The notes beneath the pieces were generated by a model. That model was not told the DNA's origin. It saw only the letters and a program-made list of their open reading frames with translations, and did not search any database. A program made the translations under genes and the position numbers. From NCBI GenBank assembly GCA_022827625.1, contig JAJEIE010000019.1:248001-312000 (forward strand): a DNA stretch of 64,000 nt, read 5' to 3'. This DNA is from Candidatus Poribacteria bacterium. GTDB taxonomy: Bacteria > Poribacteria > WGA-4E > WGA-3G. Shown in pieces: positions 4,146 through 13,063 of this stretch (the first letter of the stretch is position 1; each line of letters starts with the position of its first letter).

Positions 4146-4616
4146 ATGAACTGCAAAAAACGGTTACTTATTCTATCATGTTCACAACGCAAATCTGATT
4201 CCCCAGAGTCTTTACCTGCAATTGAGAGATACGACGGTCCGTTATTCTTTGTCTTACGTCGTTTTATTCGTGAGTGTCCACAGCAGACAAGGCACCTGGA
4301 TGTGTATATCTTGTCCGCTGCCTATGGGCTTATCCCGTCGGATTTTCCAACTCCATTGTATGATCGGAAGATGAACACATCACGGATTGTAGAGTTGCAG
4401 CCTCAAGTTAATACTGAGTTCTCAAATATTTTACAAAACAAATATGCCTCAATTTGTTTTGTACTTGGAAAGACTTATCTCAAGGCATTTAGGGATTTGC
4501 GACAGTTGATCCCAGCGTTTACAGAATCAATTATCGCTTACGGTCCGATAGGAAAAAAACAGGTTCAACTGAAAAAATGGCTGTGGAAACCTTCGTTAGC
4601 TGATTGGGGTAACTGA
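4146..4616 (+). CDS. DUF6884/DUF5591-like protein
   Basis: 156 aa from ATG 4146, which has TAGGGA upstream; longer in-frame starts at 4092 (TTG) and 4119 are possible. Visible motifs are LLILSCSQRK at residue 7 on, ERYDGPLF, and VYILSAAYGLIP followed by PLYDRKM. This CS-x-RK plus L/V-SA-x-YGL-x-P plus YD pattern resembles DUF6884 proteins. By my reading it also resembles the DUF5591 domain that follows the transglycosylase domain in archaeal TgtA/ArcS proteins. It converges on the TGT/DpdA-like gene 48 bases away, so a shared role in 7-deazaguanine chemistry is inferred, not shown. Confidence 0.65.
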   Translation: MNCKKRLLILSCSQRKSDSPESLPAIERYDGPLFFVLRRFIRECPQQTRHLDVYILSAAYGLIPSDFPTPLYDRKMNTSRIVELQPQVNTEFSNILQNKYASICFVLGKTYLKAFRDLRQLIPAFTESIIAYGPIGKKQVQLKKWLWKPSLADWGN

Positions 4617-4664
4617 GGTAACTGAGGTAACTGGGCCTACGAGTTTGTGTTGGACACACGTTTT

Positions 4665-5861
4665 TTAGGATTTAGAATTGACTTTTTCAATAGCATACTC
4701 GAAAGTTTTCCGATAGACAGGACTCTTCATACGTCCCTCAATAAACATTTCAAATGCTCTTATGCCTTTTTTCTTTTCTTCGCGTACACGTTTCGCCTCA
4801 AAGTTGAATGCGTATAAATTATGGCAAGCTCGGCGATGAATATGTTTTTCTCCGTCCCGATGCTCAAGATAATCTAAGTAAGAAAGCGCATCGCGTTGAT
4901 TCCGAATTGCCCAATCCTGCTTTTTATCCCAGTCTTTGACAGCAAATCCCTCTTCGTCTATTAATTCCAATAAACGATCAGCGAATGCATTACACTTCTG
5001 TTCATATTTCTCGGTATCTTTTTCTTTTTCACGAACAGAAAATCGCGTCCAAGGAAAACCAGGCAATTGAACATTTTTGAATGCAGCACTAATGATCCAA
5101 CTCTGTGAATCAACCGTATCAGCACCAGAATAAAAAGCGAATAGCATTAGCAACGCGGATCCCAATGAAAAGCAATGAATGTGAGTATTTGGAAGAAGTT
5201 TTCTAACTGTATAGATAATCTTAATCGCCGTGCGTTTATTTCCATTGAGTGCCAACGGTGCCAAACTCCCGATACCAATTATCGGAGGGTTTTCACCCCA
5301 AATCTCAACAATACGATCAAGGGAGTTCTTGAGAGTCTCTTGATCGTATCCATGAAGCACCGGCATCAATTGGAAATAATCTGGTAAGTCATTATCTTTT
5401 AGTTTTCCAAACATTGCCTCGGTGTTTGTTACGGTACTTTCCCAACGATCTTGCTTTTCCTTCGGCTCGGAAGTTGGAAGGAAAGGGTGATCAAGAACGA
5501 CAGAGACATCCACAGCAAATTCAATTCCAATCTTAAGGACATCAAGCGAAGCTATGCTGATTTTATCTTGTTTTTGAAAGTTAAAACCACCGGAATCAAG
5601 CATCAATGGACCCTCAAAGTGGATGTATTCGCGAAGTGTTCCTTCCATATTTCTGACTTCTGAAGTAAATCTTCGCGTTCGGTGATTTGCTAACAGATCG
5701 AAGGCATTAACCAGAACTGCTTGGGTACCGGTCATTTCCCAAGGCGGATGAAGAAGCCCTGCATGCGGATAATCACCTATGCGATAACTCGCGAACAGGT
5801 TGGGGGTTTCCAAAGGAACTCTTGAAAAAACGGAGGAGTATGTTACATCTTGATTCATCAA
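4665..5861 (-). CDS. tRNA-guanine transglycosylase/DpdA-like enzyme
   Basis: 398 aa. A TIM-barrel base-exchange enzyme by motif. LDSGGFNF at 88-95 contains the Asp (D89) matching the general acid of TGT's DSGGFQ. IGIGSLAPL at 195-203 matches the glycine-rich base pocket. GADTVDSQSW at 246-255 matches the nucleophile loop, with D251 the candidate nucleophile. TGT and DpdA swap guanine for a 7-deazaguanine in tRNA or DNA. The canonical C-x-C-x2-C zinc site of bacterial TGT is not seen; HRRACHNLY at 342-350 is the only C/H-rich spot near the right place. The start overlaps the ATPase stop by four bases, so the two are translationally coupled. The operon context argues against housekeeping queuosine TGT. 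Confidence 0.78.
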   Translation of the reverse strand: MMNQDVTYSSVFSRVPLETPNLFASYRIGDYPHAGLLHPPWEMTGTQAVLVNAFDLLANHRTRRFTSEVRNMEGTLREYIHFEGPLMLDSGGFNFQKQDKISIASLDVLKIGIEFAVDVSVVLDHPFLPTSEPKEKQDRWESTVTNTEAMFGKLKDNDLPDYFQLMPVLHGYDQETLKNSLDRIVEIWGENPPIIGIGSLAPLALNGNKRTAIKIIYTVRKLLPNTHIHCFSLGSALLMLFAFYSGADTVDSQSWIISAAFKNVQLPGFPWTRFSVREKEKDTEKYEQKCNAFADRLLELIDEEGFAVKDWDKKQDWAIRNQRDALSYLDYLEHRDGEKHIHRRACHNLYAFNFEAKRVREEKKKGIRAFEMFIEGRMKSPVYRKTFEYAIEKVNSKS

Positions 5862-7015
5862 TCACCATTTTCCACAATCTGCCTCATCCGTTCGCGTATT
5901 TTTGGTAAAAAATACCCTGGTAAAACATTCTCTCCAGAAGCTTCAACTTCTTGCTTTAATAAAAGGTACTCTTCTTCAACAATCTCTCGTGTTAGAGGTT
6001 CCAACCCGTCGGGTCGGTTAGATTCATGACGTTTTTTTTCTTTCTCAAACTTGTTACGACCGCTATTGAGGTAGTCAGTCACGTAGTCAGTAGCGAGTTC
6101 AAGACTATCTATGGGTTGGAGCTCCACTGGTTCGCCTAAGCGGCGCTCAATTGCAGGATACTGTTCAAGATCTCTTGGTTCTGGTGTGGTTGCAATTACA
6201 AAGAAAACAGATTCGCTTAATATATCAAAAAGATGCCGCAAGTCTTGGGCGTATCGGGCTTGGTGTGATCGGGTTAACCCTTCAAAGATCTCCTCGAATT
6301 CGTCGAATAACAAGACAATACCGTTGCACATATTAAGTTCCTTTAGGATCTCAAGAAATCCATACAGAAACCGCATAGCGAGTGAAGAACTCGTGATATC
6401 AACTGGAGGATTTCCAGCATCAGTTAAGAGATTCTTGTCAGCAGCGGTGAGTTTTTGCTGCCCTTTTATCCACCGAATGAAGGCATCTTTCTGGCGTTCT
6501 TCCGAACCCGAAAGTGAGGTTTGAGTAGGTTGAGCAATAGCTTTAATGACTTTCAAAAATTCGCTTGATGTTTTAACTGTTTGTGAAAGTTCGCTAATTA
6601 AATTCTTGTTCACTTGTAGTTTATTAACTAAATCGGTCAAGAAGGATCCAGCAAGTTTATCAACAATTTGTCCGTGAACCTTGAAGTAACTTTCGCCAGG
6701 TTCCGAGACATAGATCGGATGAAGATTTTTGATAAGTTTACTCAGTCTTGCCTCGTCAGTCAACCGTTCAAAGTACTGCAAGATATTTGTCTTTCCTGCC
6801 CCAGTTCTTCCGTTAATACGTAACCGTTTTGAAGTTGAGGAAAAATTCTGTAGACTGTAGATAAACTTCTTCTTTACAGCGTCCTGGTCAGTGCAGACAT
6901 CTGACTTAGGTTCAGCGCTCCCTGGGAAGGGGTTTTCAAGAAGAAATACTTCCTCATAAGGGTTGAGTTCTTCAGGTCTTGCTTTAAATAGAGAAAGATC
7001 TTTTTCCAATGCCAA
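5858..7015 (-). CDS. AAA ATPase, ORC/Cdc6-like
   Basis: 385 aa. The Walker A motif is GRTGAGKT at 69-76 and Walker B is GIVLLFDEFEE at 232-242; sensor-1-like VIATTPEPRDLE follows near 273. The ATPase core is split by a helical stretch (about 120-200), and a helical C-terminus follows, as in ORC/Cdc6-like and STAND-type ATPases of mobile or defence loci. It is expected to bind and hydrolyse ATP, perhaps to load or regulate the transglycosylase on nucleic acid. Its start lies one base after the stop of the 305-aa gene, and its end overlaps the next gene by four bases. The exact family is not recognised. Confidence 0.82.
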   Translation of the reverse strand: MALEKDLSLFKARPEELNPYEEVFLLENPFPGSAEPKSDVCTDQDAVKKKFIYSLQNFSSTSKRLRINGRTGAGKTNILQYFERLTDEARLSKLIKNLHPIYVSEPGESYFKVHGQIVDKLAGSFLTDLVNKLQVNKNLISELSQTVKTSSEFLKVIKAIAQPTQTSLSGSEERQKDAFIRWIKGQQKLTAADKNLLTDAGNPPVDITSSSLAMRFLYGFLEILKELNMCNGIVLLFDEFEEIFEGLTRSHQARYAQDLRHLFDILSESVFFVIATTPEPRDLEQYPAIERRLGEPVELQPIDSLELATDYVTDYLNSGRNKFEKEKKRHESNRPDGLEPLTREIVEEEYLLLKQEVEASGENVLPGYFLPKIRERMRQIVENGD

Positions 7016-7016
7016 T

Positions 7017-7934
7017 TTAATCCTCCCACCGAATTAGTTTAACCAATTTGCCATTGATGCGCACTCCATCCTCCAGATACCGACGTTCGATCCACCGTAG
7101 ACGAGGTCTCTTACTGCCAGGCAGCAACTTTGCCGAAAGTTTTTCCTTGAGAATCTCTTTTCTCGATCGTATTGAAGTGATCTGGAGATGGCCAGAAATT
7201 TCCCGGCGGATTGTTGCTGGGGCGAGTGTAATTTCGCCGGGGAACCTTTCTATAAATTGCTTCATCTTCATTTCAAAAGCTTGAAAGGAGATGCGTAATT
7301 CTCGACAAACCTGATGTGCCAACCGCCCAACGTTCGCGTAACCGGACGTTTTCTCTGCCCAATTATAATGTGCTTGGCAGACCGTTTTGAAGTGTTCTAA
7401 GGAAGGCCGATCGACATCCCACTCTCCACCCCAATAAAGGATAGCTTCAAAGGGAGAACGATAAGCATGCCCTAAGGATACTGCCCATGTTTGAAATATA
7501 TCAAAAGCAACGAAGGTAATGCCGTATTTAGGCTTTAATTTACGCCCTAAATCCCTACGAGATTCCTTATCTTGACGTTGCGGAATCTCTATCTTTTGTT
7601 CCTGTTTCAAGCATTCAAGAAAATCCGAGTAAGGTGGATAATTTATCAGTCCTTGACTCATCGGCAACAGGCAATCTCCAGAGTTCCAAGCATGAATAAA
7701 CCTATCGTAATTTTCAGTTAGACACAAGATATTCCGGTCTTGAATACTCCGGACAATCCAATGAGATGCTTCAAAAACTCTCAAGATATCACCTGATCTT
7801 CGGACGAGATTTTTTATCTTTCCTTGACTCTCAACAATTTCATAGAAGGCATCCATTGAAAGTTCACCTGCAGCACGGTATTTCTCAATGGCATCCGCAA
7901 CGGAAAGTAATTTGCTTATGGTAATCGGGTCCAA
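7017..7934 (-). CDS. Uncharacterised protein of the transglycosylase operon
   Basis: 305 aa, no family recognised. The N-terminal 100 residues look helical and could be a winged-helix-like domain. The C-terminal 60 residues are rich in Arg/Lys (KEKLSAKLLPGSKRPRLRW), which suggests nucleic-acid binding. The start is TTG at 7934-7932, supported by GGGAGGTG eight bases upstream; that ribosome site lies inside the 3' end of the preceding frame. It is directly upstream of the ATPase (one-base gap). A DNA- or RNA-recognition subunit is a reasonable guess only. Confidence 0.7.
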   Translation of the reverse strand: MDPITISKLLSVADAIEKYRAAGELSMDAFYEIVESQGKIKNLVRRSGDILRVFEASHWIVRSIQDRNILCLTENYDRFIHAWNSGDCLLPMSQGLINYPPYSDFLECLKQEQKIEIPQRQDKESRRDLGRKLKPKYGITFVAFDIFQTWAVSLGHAYRSPFEAILYWGGEWDVDRPSLEHFKTVCQAHYNWAEKTSGYANVGRLAHQVCRELRISFQAFEMKMKQFIERFPGEITLAPATIRREISGHLQITSIRSRKEILKEKLSAKLLPGSKRPRLRWIERRYLEDGVRINGKLVKLIRWED

Positions 7935-7937
7935 TTG

Positions 7938-8383
7938 TTACACCTCCCGAATTTCCATTACGTCATTAGCAAAATCCTCAACGCGCTGGTGAATAGTAAA
8001 CAAGTTCATATTGCCTGAATGATCTTTGCTTTCAAAGCGAATCGTGCTAAAAACCTGGACGAAATCCCACAGTAGATAATGGATGGGCGTTAACACAAAT
8101 TTCCGGTTGTAAGAATCGTACCGAACAGAGTTAACCTCTGGATCTAAACGTGGGCACCGATGTGGAGACTCGCTTGGTTTTCCAAGGTTGCGAACGAAGC
8201 CATATCTTTATCGCCCGTGATAAGGTAGACCTCTTGGTGAAGTCCACGATCTCGCTTGAGGTTTTTTGATATAGGTTCGTTAGTCTCTGAGCCCTTTGAG
8301 TCCAGCGTTGCAATAGCATGTGATAACTGATTCAAATTGATCACAACTTCGTTCAGCATTTGCTGCTCCTGGAAATCTGACAT
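7938..8383 (-). pseudogene. Frameshifted first gene of the transglycosylase operon
   Basis: Frame one opens at ATG 8383 (start MSDFQEQQML, later VYLITGDKDM) and stops at 8144. A second frame, -1 relative to the first, is open across the break with protein-like sequence (SVRYDSYNRKF, IHYLLWDFVQV, HQRVEDFAND) and ends at TAA 7938, just before the next gene. The second frame has no start of its own near its beginning. Together they read as one protein of about 147 residues broken by loss of one base near 8144-8165, where there is a CCC run. Mutation, assembly error and recoding are all possible; no classic slippery heptamer is obvious. Function unknown. Confidence 0.6.
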
Positions 8384-8647: not shown

Positions 8648-11599
8648 ATGGCGAGAAAGAAACGCACTACCCAGCAAAAAGATGTCCAAGACTACCGACA
8701 CGACACCGCTACCCGAAAAAACAACCCACCCGCAGGCATCGCCGCACAGGGAAAAATCCAAGAAACACCGAAACAGGAATACGCATACAATCCACACCTA
8801 CCCCCCAATCTCCGCTCCGATCCAAACGGAGATGCAGACAAACTCCCCGAACTCCTACAAATCGCACAGCAGCGACAACTCACCGCAGAGGAAGCCAAAA
8901 CCCTCGCCGATGCACTCCGACAACACGACCCGTGGCTCGAATGGGCAGGCAAAGAGGAGACAAAATCGTTTACCGTCGATCCAGTTGCCTTGCACATCCA
9001 CGAACGCGTCAGTGCCAAAGCCATCTTGAAAGTCGCAGAACGCCAGAATGTCCAGCGCGATCTCTTTGCCGACCCGCAGCAGACGTACGGCGAGGCAGTC
9101 GATTTCTACCAGCACGATGTGGATTGGGCAAACCGTCTCATCCTTGGTGATAGTCTTACCGTCATGAGTTCCCTCGCCCACCGAGAGGACCTTGCCGGTA
9201 AGGTGCAGATGATTTATATCGACCCACCTTACGGTATCAAATTCGCCTCTAATTTCCAACCGACAGTCTTTCAACGTGATGTAAAAGACAGGGAACAAGA
9301 TTTAACTCGCGAACCGGAACAGATCAAGGCATATCGCGATACGTGGACACTCGGGGTCCATTCCTACCTCGCCTACCTGCGTGACCGATTAATTGCTGCC
9401 AAAGAGTTGTTGACAGACAGCGGGAGTATTTTTGTGCAGATTAGTGATGAGAATGTTCACCGGGTGCGGTGTATCATGGATGAGGTGTTTGGTGGTGACA
9501 ATTTCGTTGCGAATATAATTTACAAGGTTACTAGTGGTACTCGGCAAAATATAGGACCTCGTCGCATTTCTGATTTCATCCTATGGTACGCAAAGGATAG
9601 AGAACAAGGGAAGTTTAATCGTCTTTATGTGGAAAAGACATTTGGAGAAGGTTCTACATTTAAAAGTGTTGAGTTAGAAAACGGGACTCGGCGTTCAATG
9701 GTAGAAACTGAGCGCGAAAATCCCACTTTATTGCCCCATCATTCACGTCCCTTTCGCTCATTACCATTGCATAGCCAAGGCGCTGGCGACAATCAGGAAC
9801 GTGAATTTGAAGGAAAGAGGTGGAAAATTTCTAATTCTTCACATTGGAGGTATTCACAAGAAGGTTTTTCCAGACTTATTTCAGCAGGCCGCATCCAAGC
9901 AGGGAAAACAGTTTTAGAAGCTATATATTATTTTCATGACTTTAGTGTAGCAGAAATTACAACGACTTGGGATGACACAGCACCTGAGACAATAAGATCC
10001 TATGTGGTCCAAACATCAATTCTTCCAATCCAACGTTGCATGTTAATGACTACTGACCCCGGAGATCTCGTTCTCGACCCAACATGTGGCAGCGGCACAA
10101 CCGCCTACGTAGCTGAGCAATGGGGCAGACGATGGATTACGATTGATACAAGCCGCGTGGCAGTCGCTTTGGCACGCCAGCGTCTCTTAACAGGTTCATT
10201 TGATTACTACGAGTTCAAAGACGAATCCAAAGGTATTAGCGGAGGCTTTGAAAATAAAAAAGTTCCGCACATCACGCTCAAGAGCATTGCTCAAAACACC
10301 GCGCTTGATCCCATCTTTGCAAAACACGAACCAATTCTCATAGAGAAATTGGACACTCTCAACCACGCTCTAACTGAAGTTACACAGGATACCTGTTCAA
10401 AACTCCTAACGAAACTTGCAGAGAAACAGAGGCGCGAAGGCAAAAGAGCTATCACTGATGCCGACTCGCGACGCTGGCAGCTTCCCAAGACAGCATGGCA
10501 AGAGTGGGAAGTCCCATTTGATACCGACCCCGACTGGCCCCAAGCCTTGCAGGATGCCCTAACCGATTACCGTAAGGCATGGCGCGCAAAGATGGATGAG
10601 GTAAATGAATGCATCGCTGCAGCCTCAGAAAGCGAAGAATTAGTTAATTCACCAGAGATAGACAGAAAGCGGATCCGAGTAAGCGGTCCCTTCACAGTTG
10701 AAGCCGTACAACCCCCAGAAGAATCCCTTGATGTGGAGTTACCGATCGGTGGCGAATCCCAAAATGACCCAGACACGTTTGATGCGGAGACAAATGGAAA
10801 CAACGCTGTCAATGCCGAGGCATACCTTGACCAGATGATCCGCCTACTCCGAAATGACGGCGTTCGGTTCCCCAACAACCAAACACTAAAATTTGCCACA
10901 CTCGACCCGTTTGAGGGCGATCTCCTTAATGCTGAAGGGAGCTGGGAAAATGACGATGCAGAACGCAGAGTCGCGGTCGTCTTTGGTCCACAACACGGAC
11001 CTGTAACAGCGATGCTGGTCGAACAGTGTCTGCGCGTTGCGTATCGGTACGATTATGATGATCTCGTCTTTGCAGGTTTCAGTTTCGATGGTGCCGCGCA
11101 GGCCATTATACAAGATGATCTGAATCCCAATGTCCGTATCCATATAGCGCACATCAACCCTGATGTCGCAATGGGGTACCTACTCAAGGAAACGCCTTCT
11201 ACACAACTGTTTACTGTGTTTGGCATGCCTCGCACAACCCTTGAAGTGAAAACCGACGGTGAATACTTCATCAAAATGGAGGGTGTAGACATCTACAATC
11301 CCGTAGATAACACGGTGAGTTCCGCAGGGGCAGATAAGGTTGCAGCATGGTTCGTCGATTCCGACTACGACAGTCGCACCTTCTGCATCACCCAAGCCTT
11401 CTTTCCGGACAAGTCGGCATGGAACAAAATCGCCCGCGCCCTCAAAGGTGTCATTGACGAAGACCGTTTTGAACAATTTAGCGGCACAGAATCGTTACCT
11501 TTCCCTGCTGGCGAACACGCCTGCGTCGCTGTCAAAGTCATAGACCCACGCGGGAACGAGGTGATGTCGGTGCATAATTTGGGGGATCGACGGTATTGA
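8648..11599 (+). CDS. Type III-like adenine-specific DNA methyltransferase
   Basis: 983 aa. Beta-class amino-methyltransferase order: catalytic motif DPPYGIKF at 192-199, target-recognition region, then SAM-binding motif LDPTCGSGTT near 476-485. It should methylate adenine N6 at an unknown site. The C-terminal 470 residues form an extra module ending near NLGDRRY, as in long Mod proteins paired with large helicase-nucleases; that pairing is from memory of such loci. Consensus promoter upstream. The codons for 500-560 and the target-recognition stretch near 9500-10000 look more AT-rich than the flanks, as expected for a swapped specificity region. It is followed by a membrane protein gene and the nuclease gene. 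Confidence 0.92.
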   Translation: MARKKRTTQQKDVQDYRHDTATRKNNPPAGIAAQGKIQETPKQEYAYNPHLPPNLRSDPNGDADKLPELLQIAQQRQLTAEEAKTLADALRQHDPWLEWAGKEETKSFTVDPVALHIHERVSAKAILKVAERQNVQRDLFADPQQTYGEAVDFYQHDVDWANRLILGDSLTVMSSLAHREDLAGKVQMIYIDPPYGIKFASNFQPTVFQRDVKDREQDLTREPEQIKAYRDTWTLGVHSYLAYLRDRLIAAKELLTDSGSIFVQISDENVHRVRCIMDEVFGGDNFVANIIYKVTSGTRQNIGPRRISDFILWYAKDREQGKFNRLYVEKTFGEGSTFKSVELENGTRRSMVETERENPTLLPHHSRPFRSLPLHSQGAGDNQEREFEGKRWKISNSSHWRYSQEGFSRLISAGRIQAGKTVLEAIYYFHDFSVAEITTTWDDTAPETIRSYVVQTSILPIQRCMLMTTDPGDLVLDPTCGSGTTAYVAEQWGRRWITIDTSRVAVALARQRLLTGSFDYYEFKDESKGISGGFENKKVPHITLKSIAQNTALDPIFAKHEPILIEKLDTLNHALTEVTQDTCSKLLTKLAEKQRREGKRAITDADSRRWQLPKTAWQEWEVPFDTDPDWPQALQDALTDYRKAWRAKMDEVNECIAAASESEELVNSPEIDRKRIRVSGPFTVEAVQPPEESLDVELPIGGESQNDPDTFDAETNGNNAVNAEAYLDQMIRLLRNDGVRFPNNQTLKFATLDPFEGDLLNAEGSWENDDAERRVAVVFGPQHGPVTAMLVEQCLRVAYRYDYDDLVFAGFSFDGAAQAIIQDDLNPNVRIHIAHINPDVAMGYLLKETPSTQLFTVFGMPRTTLEVKTDGEYFIKMEGVDIYNPVDNTVSSAGADKVAAWFVDSDYDSRTFCITQAFFPDKSAWNKIARALKGVIDEDRFEQFSGTESLPFPAGEHACVAVKVIDPRGNEVMSVHNLGDRRY

Positions 11600-11851: not shown

Positions 11852-13063
11852 ATGAAAAAAAATATAGCCTGCTTCCTATTGGCAGCGTTATTCATAATGA
11901 TACTTCCTCTCTTATTTGCGCAACGAGATCAAAACTTGCAAAGACCTGACCCGGAGATTGCGGCACTCGAAGAACGTATCTCGAAACTCGAAAGTAAACT
12001 CCAGACCGTAGAAAATGTTGAGAAGATGGAACTCGTAGCGAAACTCGCCGAGGCAAATGCGAAACTTACTAATGCAGAGTTTGACAAGTTTAAGAACGAA
12101 TTGAGGGAATCTAACAATGAATGGTTAAAGTCATGGAGTCTTTGGTTTCTGACTATAATTGGAATTTTCGCTGCAATTCTCATTGGTGTTGGTTACGTGT
12201 TTTGGTTTTGGCTTAGATCTAGAGCAAATCAATTGATAGCAGATAAAGTTGAAGAGAGCCTTGATGAATTTACGGAAGCCCTGGCCCAGGTAGATGTTCT
12301 GAAGGAAGCTGTGGGTCAAGTAAATATATTGGAAGATCAGGTAAGTATATTAAAAAAAGAACAGGCAATTTCTGTATTAAGTGGTTTAGTTAATCTTTAC
12401 GATCCAAAAGAACAAAACGATTATGAGGAAACTAGCACAATCCAGAGCGAAACTCTTTTAGATGTATTTGTTGACAAAACACGCAATTTAGGGTTGAGAT
12501 ATAAGGCAGGAGAGGTACTATCCGCTAGAAAAATCCCACAATTTGTTTCTCCATTGCTAGAGTTCTTAAATTCAGTAATCAATTCAGAATTTGATTGGAA
12601 AGATAGTTTGCATGCAGAATCCCGTCTGCTTGATTTTGTAAATTTTCTCGGACATATACACACTCAAGAGGTGTACGAAGAACTAAAAAAGATCCTTGAC
12701 CGTTTGTTATCAACAGAAGATGTGGAACTCAAGGAATTATTATTAACACAGACCGTATTTTCGCTTGCTCGAGTTAGTGGTGAACTGAATACAAAAGATT
12801 CAGTGTTTCTACTTAAAACGGCTATACCGTATTTGAATGTTGAATTAGACGAAGACCAAGCACTAAAAGACTTGACTGAGTATTTTGATGGATTCAACGA
12901 GCCGGAAGGTATAAAGGACATCATGACGAATGGTTTAACAAATATGATGCCGGAAGTAGAAATCAGATGCTTAGAGTTATTACAAAAACACGATCCCGAT
13001 TTTGTAAGAAATTGGAGAGCACAAAAAGAATCCGCTAACACACAAACCGAGGAATCTTCATGA
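11852..13063 (+). CDS. Membrane-anchored coiled-coil protein within the R-M locus
   Basis: 403 aa, family not recognised. Residues 1-23 form a signal peptide (MKKN, then a hydrophobic run ending in LLFAQ). Residues 35-90 are a heptad-rich coiled coil (ALEERISKLESKLQ). Residues 96-120 are a transmembrane helix. Residues 125-165 are a second short coiled coil, and the rest is an acidic all-helical region that could be HEAT-like. The C-terminal part is predicted to be cytoplasmic. Its last four bases overlap the start of the nuclease gene (ATGA), so the two are translationally coupled. A membrane protein between mod and res is unusual. Base composition is more AT-rich than its neighbours. Confidence 0.75.
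   Translation: MKKNIACFLLAALFIMILPLLFAQRDQNLQRPDPEIAALEERISKLESKLQTVENVEKMELVAKLAEANAKLTNAEFDKFKNELRESNNEWLKSWSLWFLTIIGIFAAILIGVGYVFWFWLRSRANQLIADKVEESLDEFTEALAQVDVLKEAVGQVNILEDQVSILKKEQAISVLSGLVNLYDPKEQNDYEETSTIQSETLLDVFVDKTRNLGLRYKAGEVLSARKIPQFVSPLLEFLNSVINSEFDWKDSLHAESRLLDFVNFLGHIHTQEVYEELKKILDRLLSTEDVELKELLLTQTVFSLARVSGELNTKDSVFLLKTAIPYLNVELDEDQALKDLTEYFDGFNEPEGIKDIMTNGLTNMMPEVEIRCLELLQKHDPDFVRNWRAQKESANTQTEESS

Follow-up and report, generated by a model that had tools for sequence, protein, structure and literature searches.

Systems that place 7-deazaguanines in DNA are known as DpdA-centred, among them the Dpd system of Salmonella Montevideo (DpdA-K), which gives dPreQ0/dADG in DNA. 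One of its components, DpdC, matches the Pfam family DUF6884 according to GATOR-GC (PMC11888242), and DUF6884 is related to YaaA according to Pfam (PMC11701544). The nearest published idea of a TGT joined to BREX-type parts is that of the BRC (BREX-related capture) systems (PMC12839542). Here we describe a locus in a 64,000-nucleotide stretch of DNA (the window; contig JAJEIE010000019.1, positions 248,001 to 312,000) from a Poribacteria-type genome of a sponge-type bacterium, in which a TGT-superfamily transglycosylase, a BREX-type ATPase, a basic protein termed U and a DUF6884 protein are encoded together. With a probability of about 0.6, we read the operon as the modification half of a TGT-based, restriction-modification-like cassette whose substrate would be DNA. 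The genes and gene remnants of the cassette are as follows.

4146..4616, plus strand: DUF6884 protein, 156 amino acids (aa); Pfam DUF6884, CSQRK and LSAAYG motifs, related to DpdC/YaaA
4665..5861, minus strand: TGT-superfamily transglycosylase, 398 aa; Pfam TGT, start TTG at 5861, ATG at 5858
5858..7015, minus strand: BrxC/D-type AAA+ (ORC/Cdc6-like) ATPase, 385 aa; Pfam PF10923
7017..7934, minus strand: U, basic protein without a family, 305 aa; AlphaFold model, conserved partner of the ATPase
7940..8265, minus strand: remnant of a PIN-nuclease gene (C-terminal third, frameshifted); blastn to L032, 74% identity
8266..8454, minus strand: remnant of a ~140-aa gene (N-terminal part, frameshifted); alignment to L032

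A sequence-only reading of the window had named four genes, and their positions and arrangement are as it described. The TGT and ATPase genes overlap by four bases when counted from the TTG start, or by 1 base from the ATG just inside it, the gap between the ATPase and U genes is 1 base, U is indeed basic (isoelectric point 9.3), and the DUF6884 gene converges on the TGT-ATPase-U operon, facing the TGT. A 79-aa open reading frame at 8144–8383 is not a gene but a deletion scar, in which the beginning of the 140-aa gene runs into the last part of the PIN gene; both genes are intact in relatives. The loci of these relatives are labelled L032, L033 and so forth, and are poribacterial, Anaerolineae, haloarchaeal or other as named with each result. 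In relatives the full cassette encodes the DUF6884 protein, a ~140-aa protein, a ~388-aa PIN protein, U, the ATPase and the TGT, and this six-gene set is shared by the poribacterial loci L032, L034, L035 and L037. The ~388-aa protein is a PIN nuclease, with PIN_4 scores of 34.9 bits in L037 and 22.3 bits in L032 (cut-off 21.9) and the invariant acidic residues D169, D270, D296 and D298; its gene is intact in L032, L034, L035, L037, L039 and L052. Relative to L032, the window carries a ~1058-bp deletion with its junction near 8265 and 2 bp of microhomology, plus frameshifts. The window copy is a remnant of the six-gene cassette in which the 140-aa and PIN genes have been destroyed, and the PIN gene of L033 was broken separately. 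Purifying selection acts on the four genes that remain, with ratios of nonsynonymous to synonymous substitution rates (dN/dS) of 0.10–0.31 overall and 0.12–0.14 for the TGT. Synonymous divergence between the window and L033 is 0.16–0.18 for the ATPase and U and 0.70 for the TGT; because it is so uneven among the genes of a single pair of loci, the cassette has probably been reshuffled by recombination.

The expectation that the same genes would recur elsewhere was borne out in Poribacteria, Anaerolineae and haloarchaeal plasmids. A search of 85 genomes of the phylum returned six further genomes with a full-length TGT (65–85% identity) and one with an internally deleted TGT. The patchy presence within a genus and the GC content of the cassette, 42% compared with 48% for the window, suggest that the cassette is mobile. 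Two Anaerolineae loci were found by a genome-wide scan, L052 with all six genes and L053 partly decayed; HerA-like and NurA-like genes, the NurA-like match being below the Pfam cut-off, follow the L052 cassette directly downstream. Also downstream of that cassette (L052:10156-12005) are a macro-domain protein and a DarT-like partner, the DarT call coming from a reading of the sequence only. Searching plasmids at the protein level retrieved haloarchaeal TGTs 344 aa long with ~25% identity, and on 8/8 haloarchaeal plasmids with this TGT its gene is followed by that of U, with a 4-base overlap, and then by that of an ATPase whose annotation is BREX ATP-binding. The plasmid records that contain U are precisely the eight that contain this TGT. 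Broken cassette genes occur at L033, L039, L053 and L069, the last of which has a frameshifted haloarchaeal ATPase. No close relatives of the TGT, U or PIN proteins were found in viral contigs, and phage records gave only weak matches to Sulfolobus viruses. This gene set was not found in the searched literature on DpdA, Ssp, HerA/NurA and BREX, in which coverage of Dpd was incomplete and an earlier mention is possible.

The 398-aa protein belongs to the TGT superfamily, as indicated by its Pfam score (60.0 bits against a gathering cut-off of 26.3), its fold and its two catalytic aspartates. Its residues D89, D124, H170, D251 and the GIGS motif at 196–199 were identified, and in an alignment with Protein Data Bank (PDB) sequences D89 and D251 line up with the catalytic motifs LDSG and FDS in 1iq8, an archaeal TGT, as the sequence-only reading had proposed; both are invariant in eight cassette TGTs and eight haloarchaeal TGTs. 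The AlphaFold model (predicted local distance difference test score, pLDDT, 74) matches solved TGTs with Z values of 27–28, and its VIA-align alignment to 1iq8 gives Z 27.9 over 324 residues with a root mean square deviation (rmsd) of 3.2. The lack of a canonical zinc cluster noted earlier was confirmed: the CxCxxC motif is absent from the bacterial cassette TGTs, including that of the window, which keep the last ligand, the HNL histidine, and the haloarchaeal homologues retain the motif. The CxCxxC...H site is usual, not universal, in the TGT superfamily. The suggestion of a TGT/DpdA-type enzyme stood for the superfamily but not for DpdA, since the window TGT scores 25.3 bits with the NCBIfam DpdA model (NF041059), whose cut-off is 200, and lies outside the DpdA clade. 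In a maximum-likelihood tree, DpdA, the haloarchaeal TGT2 and the fused TGT encoded elsewhere in the window's genome form a group with 100/100 support from which the window TGT is excluded, with long branches and an uncertain deeper placing. It groups instead with two further TGT lineages that are associated with DUF6884, those of L038 and L043/L044 (support 98/98, long branches), and by these comparisons it is a lineage separate from DpdA.

The second partner is the DUF6884 protein, for which the predicted profile match was obtained at 37.1 bits (PF21818, cut-off 30). It has CSQRK (CxxxK) and LSAAYG (LSAxxG) motifs, the C and K being invariant in the alignment, and scores 32.8 bits with the PADLOC model PDC-M57A and 11.2 bits with DpdC. 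DUF6884 is the first operon gene in most relatives, its orientation and side vary between them, and DUF6884-TGT fusions are found elsewhere. A DUF5591-type partner had also been considered; no DUF5591 was found in the window cassette by Pfam hmmscan, and the partner is DUF6884 (YaaA/DpdC-related) instead. DpdB (DGQHR/ParB-like) was likewise not found in the window cassette; upstream, a single DGQHR protein is confined to L037/L051.

TGT and DUF6884 genes also meet in other arrangements. In the same genome as the window (L045:5467-14472, contig C31), a 589-aa DUF6884-DpdA fusion scoring 326 bits with DpdA lies in an operon that also holds HerA-like, NurA-like, UvrD-like and PD-(D/E)XK genes. 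At L043:1641-6790 and L044:8832-13757, an operon encodes DUF6884, NurA-like and HerA-like proteins and a TGT of 352–359 aa, apparently a TGT-HerA-NurA system not described before; the domain scan covered L043 alone. A distant poribacterial locus (L038:2234-10564) combines DUF6884 with an N4/N6 methyltransferase, a DruE/DpdJ-like helicase and a 393-aa TGT. In Nostoc pNOS3756_2 (L058:3560-5704), a DpdA with an N-terminal YaaA-like part, resembling a DpdC-DpdA fusion, adjoins a second small TGT between two helicases. Poribacterial TGTs of ~640 aa (L040:9519-11447, L041:2000-3922 and L042:10411-12360) were set aside as cassette members, being TgtA-like with unrelated neighbourhoods; a DUF5591 fusion was confirmed in L040, and the combination of a TgtA-like TGT with DUF5591 in Poribacteria is an archaeosine-type architecture in bacteria.

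The ATPase matches Pfam BrxC_BrxD (PF10923) with 36.6 bits against a cut-off of 22.2, so that the ORC-like assignment made from the sequence alone holds in the form of a BrxC/D-type AAA+ protein of the ORC/Cdc6-like kind. It has a Walker A motif, GRTGAGKT, at residue 69 and LLFDE at 235, and lies below the BrxD equivalog cut-off (34.6 compared with 350). PglZ and BrxC (DUF6079/DUF499) were not found among the cassette proteins scanned. Profile comparison with hhalign matches the ATPase to its haloarchaeal counterpart (probability 98.8, E 1e-16) and U to a haloarchaeal protein of ~300 aa (probability 92.7, E 4e-7, 214 columns), which by this comparison is U. U has no Pfam family. Its AlphaFold model (pLDDT 87.7) shows helix-turn-helix units followed by strand pairs and is read here as a predicted chain of three winged-helix-like units; structural support is limited to the N-terminal winged helix, which matches those of MukF/MarR (Z up to 10.7, 83 residues, rmsd 2.6), the other units resting on secondary structure. 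No match was obtained for U with Foldseek against PDB and viral models at E <= 0.001, nor against PDB sequences, and BrxA was not among the matches listed, a listing that is no test of BrxA. An assignment of U to DUF4007/SspB was ruled out by hhalign probabilities of 0.1 and 0.2 against ten DUF4007 proteins. On Ensifer canadensis pT173c (L087:8633-18978), a 662-aa PIN-U fusion, for which the hmmsearch E-values, like those of one search behind the DUF6884-TGT fusions, come from very small databases, is followed by a BrxC/D-like ATPase and adjoins SNF2 and DUF1156 genes. No TGT lies within 9 kb. The fusion ties PIN physically to U, and with its ATPase and no nearby TGT it suggests that U and the ATPase form a targeting hub whose client can be a PIN effector or a TGT.

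The trio of TGT, U and ATPase is tied to 7-deazaguanine DNA chemistry by its haloarchaeal neighbours, which include DpdA-type TGTs and genes for preQ0 synthesis or transport. A long second TGT gene (734–970 aa) is upstream of the trio on 7/8 haloarchaeal plasmids. The second TGTs of L054, L055, L057, L066, L067 and L068 group with Nostoc DpdA in the tree, and that of L065 was recognised solely by its annotation. The L055 protein, the one that was scanned, scores 281 bits with DpdA (cut-off 200) and is followed by a DUF6884 protein that matches DpdC models at 38 bits. In L069, DUF6884 is present and no long TGT lies in the stretch seen. The genes queC/folE/queE/queD are alongside in L055 and L067, queE/queD in L068 and queD in L054, and a queuosine-precursor (preQ0, YhhQ) transporter is encoded in L066 and L069. 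Judged from gene content, all hosts that were checked have a source of preQ0, because all poribacterial carriers have QueC and the two Anaerolineae carriers, which lack full-length QueC, have YhhQ-type transporters. The proposal of a base-modification or defence cassette in which transglycosylase and DUF partner are separate genes is thereby supported by the DUF6884 partner, the recurrence and the preQ0 genes in haloarchaea, but the cassette is not the compact four-gene system envisaged.

If the operon marks the cell's own DNA, U would use its winged-helix units to bind DNA, on which the BrxD-like ATPase may oligomerise with U and open or position the target. The TGT would then swap a target guanine for preQ0, with D251 as the putative nucleophile and D89 as the putative general acid/base, and the DUF6884 protein, as a DpdC/YaaA relative, might convert the inserted preQ0, probably to an amide (ADG) or similar base. 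In the complete cassette the U-ATPase hub would recruit the PIN nuclease and its 140-aa partner against unmarked invaders. The effector step would be dead in the window copy, which would now mark DNA without restriction because the deletion destroyed the PIN and 140-aa genes. More tentatively, at somewhat less than even odds, the cassettes may represent an undescribed class of DNA-marking immunity found in haloarchaea as well as bacteria, whose common DNA-targeting hub, made up of the winged-helix protein and the BrxD-like ATPase, would serve both a non-DpdA transglycosylase, with a 7-deazaguanine mark, and a PIN effector.

To our knowledge, the biochemically known TGTs outside the DpdA group all act on tRNA, which counts for an RNA substrate instead, as does the best family model for the window TGT, the archaeal tRNA TgtA (TIGR00432, 59.7 bits). 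The TGT would then act on tRNA or infection RNA, the defence would work by tRNA modification or in a way linked to translation, and its effector would be a PIN RNase. PIN domains are often RNases, PIN endoRNases being listed as backup effectors of BREX-type systems (PMC12839542). However, the TgtA score is far under its cut-off of 350, no RNA-binding domain was found by Pfam hmmscan, the TGT is partnered by a BrxD-like ATPase and a protein of winged-helix type, and the haloarchaeal copies adjoin DpdA/DpdC-type DNA-modification genes; an RNA target is considered unlikely. Other observations weigh against DNA marking by the trio. The DpdC match of the window DUF6884 protein is weak (11 bits), and among Poribacteria QueC is not confined to the carriers. 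In haloarchaea the trio already has a true DpdA beside it, and the TGT of the trio may act otherwise there; the U-ATPase pair may belong to the effector side, given the Ensifer PIN-U-ATPase with no TGT within 9 kb; and, weighing most heavily, in L039 the TGT is internally deleted with PIN, U and ATPase intact, which is not expected under strict self-protection. The DpdA neighbour, the Ensifer arrangement and the loss of the TGT with retention of PIN in L039 would also fit a reader or effector role, in which TGT-U-ATPase attacks or excises guanine in unmarked DNA by covalent base exchange or excision and so flags invaders, the writer being DpdA in haloarchaea or another enzyme. We regard this as distinctly unlikely, since poribacterial and Anaerolineae cassettes have no second TGT as a possible writer and the window trio is under purifying selection after loss of the nuclease.

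The destroyed PIN and 140-aa genes of the window, together with the broken cassette genes in L033, L039, L053 and L069, could indicate a dying defence locus with no present function. This is very unlikely for the window copy, whose four remaining genes are open with dN/dS of 0.12–0.31 relative to L033, itself without an intact PIN gene. That DUF6884, TGT and ATPase are chance neighbours in an island and form no joint system would be in keeping with the low-GC stretch (42% compared with 48%) beside a type III-like restriction system and with the varying orientation and side of DUF6884, but is highly improbable given the same gene set in three bacterial and archaeal lineages, the 8/8 co-occurrence with 4-base overlaps on haloarchaeal plasmids, and the existence of DUF6884-TGT and PIN-U fusions. 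The restriction genes are neighbours outside the cassette.

8648..11599, plus strand: type III-like DNA methyltransferase; Pfam N6_N4_Mtase 113.5 bits, PADLOC MTase_III 596 bits
13060..16041, plus strand: BPTD_3080-family restriction endonuclease; NCBIfam NF046055 954.7 bits, cut-off 800

Between them, at 11852–13063, is a 403-aa protein of no known family with a hydrophobic N terminus and a coiled-coil look.

The preferred reading, a DNA-marking cassette, would add to apparently the same chemistry a second TGT lineage, one that relies on BREX-type parts for its delivery and occurs in archaea as well as bacteria. DUF6884, of unknown function in Pfam, gains a recurrent genetic partner, and U and the 140-aa protein are two unstudied families with a predicted role. 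The window provides a natural copy with the effector already removed.

Among characterised TGTs, those of the archaeal TgtA/ArcS type are closest by sequence (1iq8, TIGR00432), but the cassette TGT is without the C-terminal DUF5591/PUA part, has lost the zinc motif, misses the TgtA cut-off and has other operon partners. The Ssp system (SspB-SspC-SspD) is similarly built as a three-gene module of a DNA-acting protein, an ATPase and a modifying enzyme (PMC8092258), and an SspD-type gene adjoins the cassette in L034, L035 and L037; U is, however, unrelated in sequence to DUF4007/SspB (hhalign probability 0.1), and a TGT takes the place of the PAPS-reductase-like SspD. With Dpd the cassette shares a TGT-superfamily base exchanger, preQ0 as the likely donor, a restriction arm that is separate and a partner of DUF6884/YaaA type that can be likened to DpdC. 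Its TGT, however, is not DpdA, lying outside that clade and scoring 25 bits where the cut-off is 200; DpdB is missing, the winged-helix protein U and a BrxD-like ATPase being present instead, and a PIN nuclease takes the place of DpdD-K. BRC likewise combines a TGT with a BrxC/ORC-type AAA+ ATPase and a multi-winged-helix DNA-binding protein. The cassette differs in having no PglZ, DUF6079, STAND NTPase or GNAT and a small, BrxD-like ATPase, and whereas no DpdB or DpdC homologues are reported in BRC (PMC12839542), DUF6884 is constant in the cassette.

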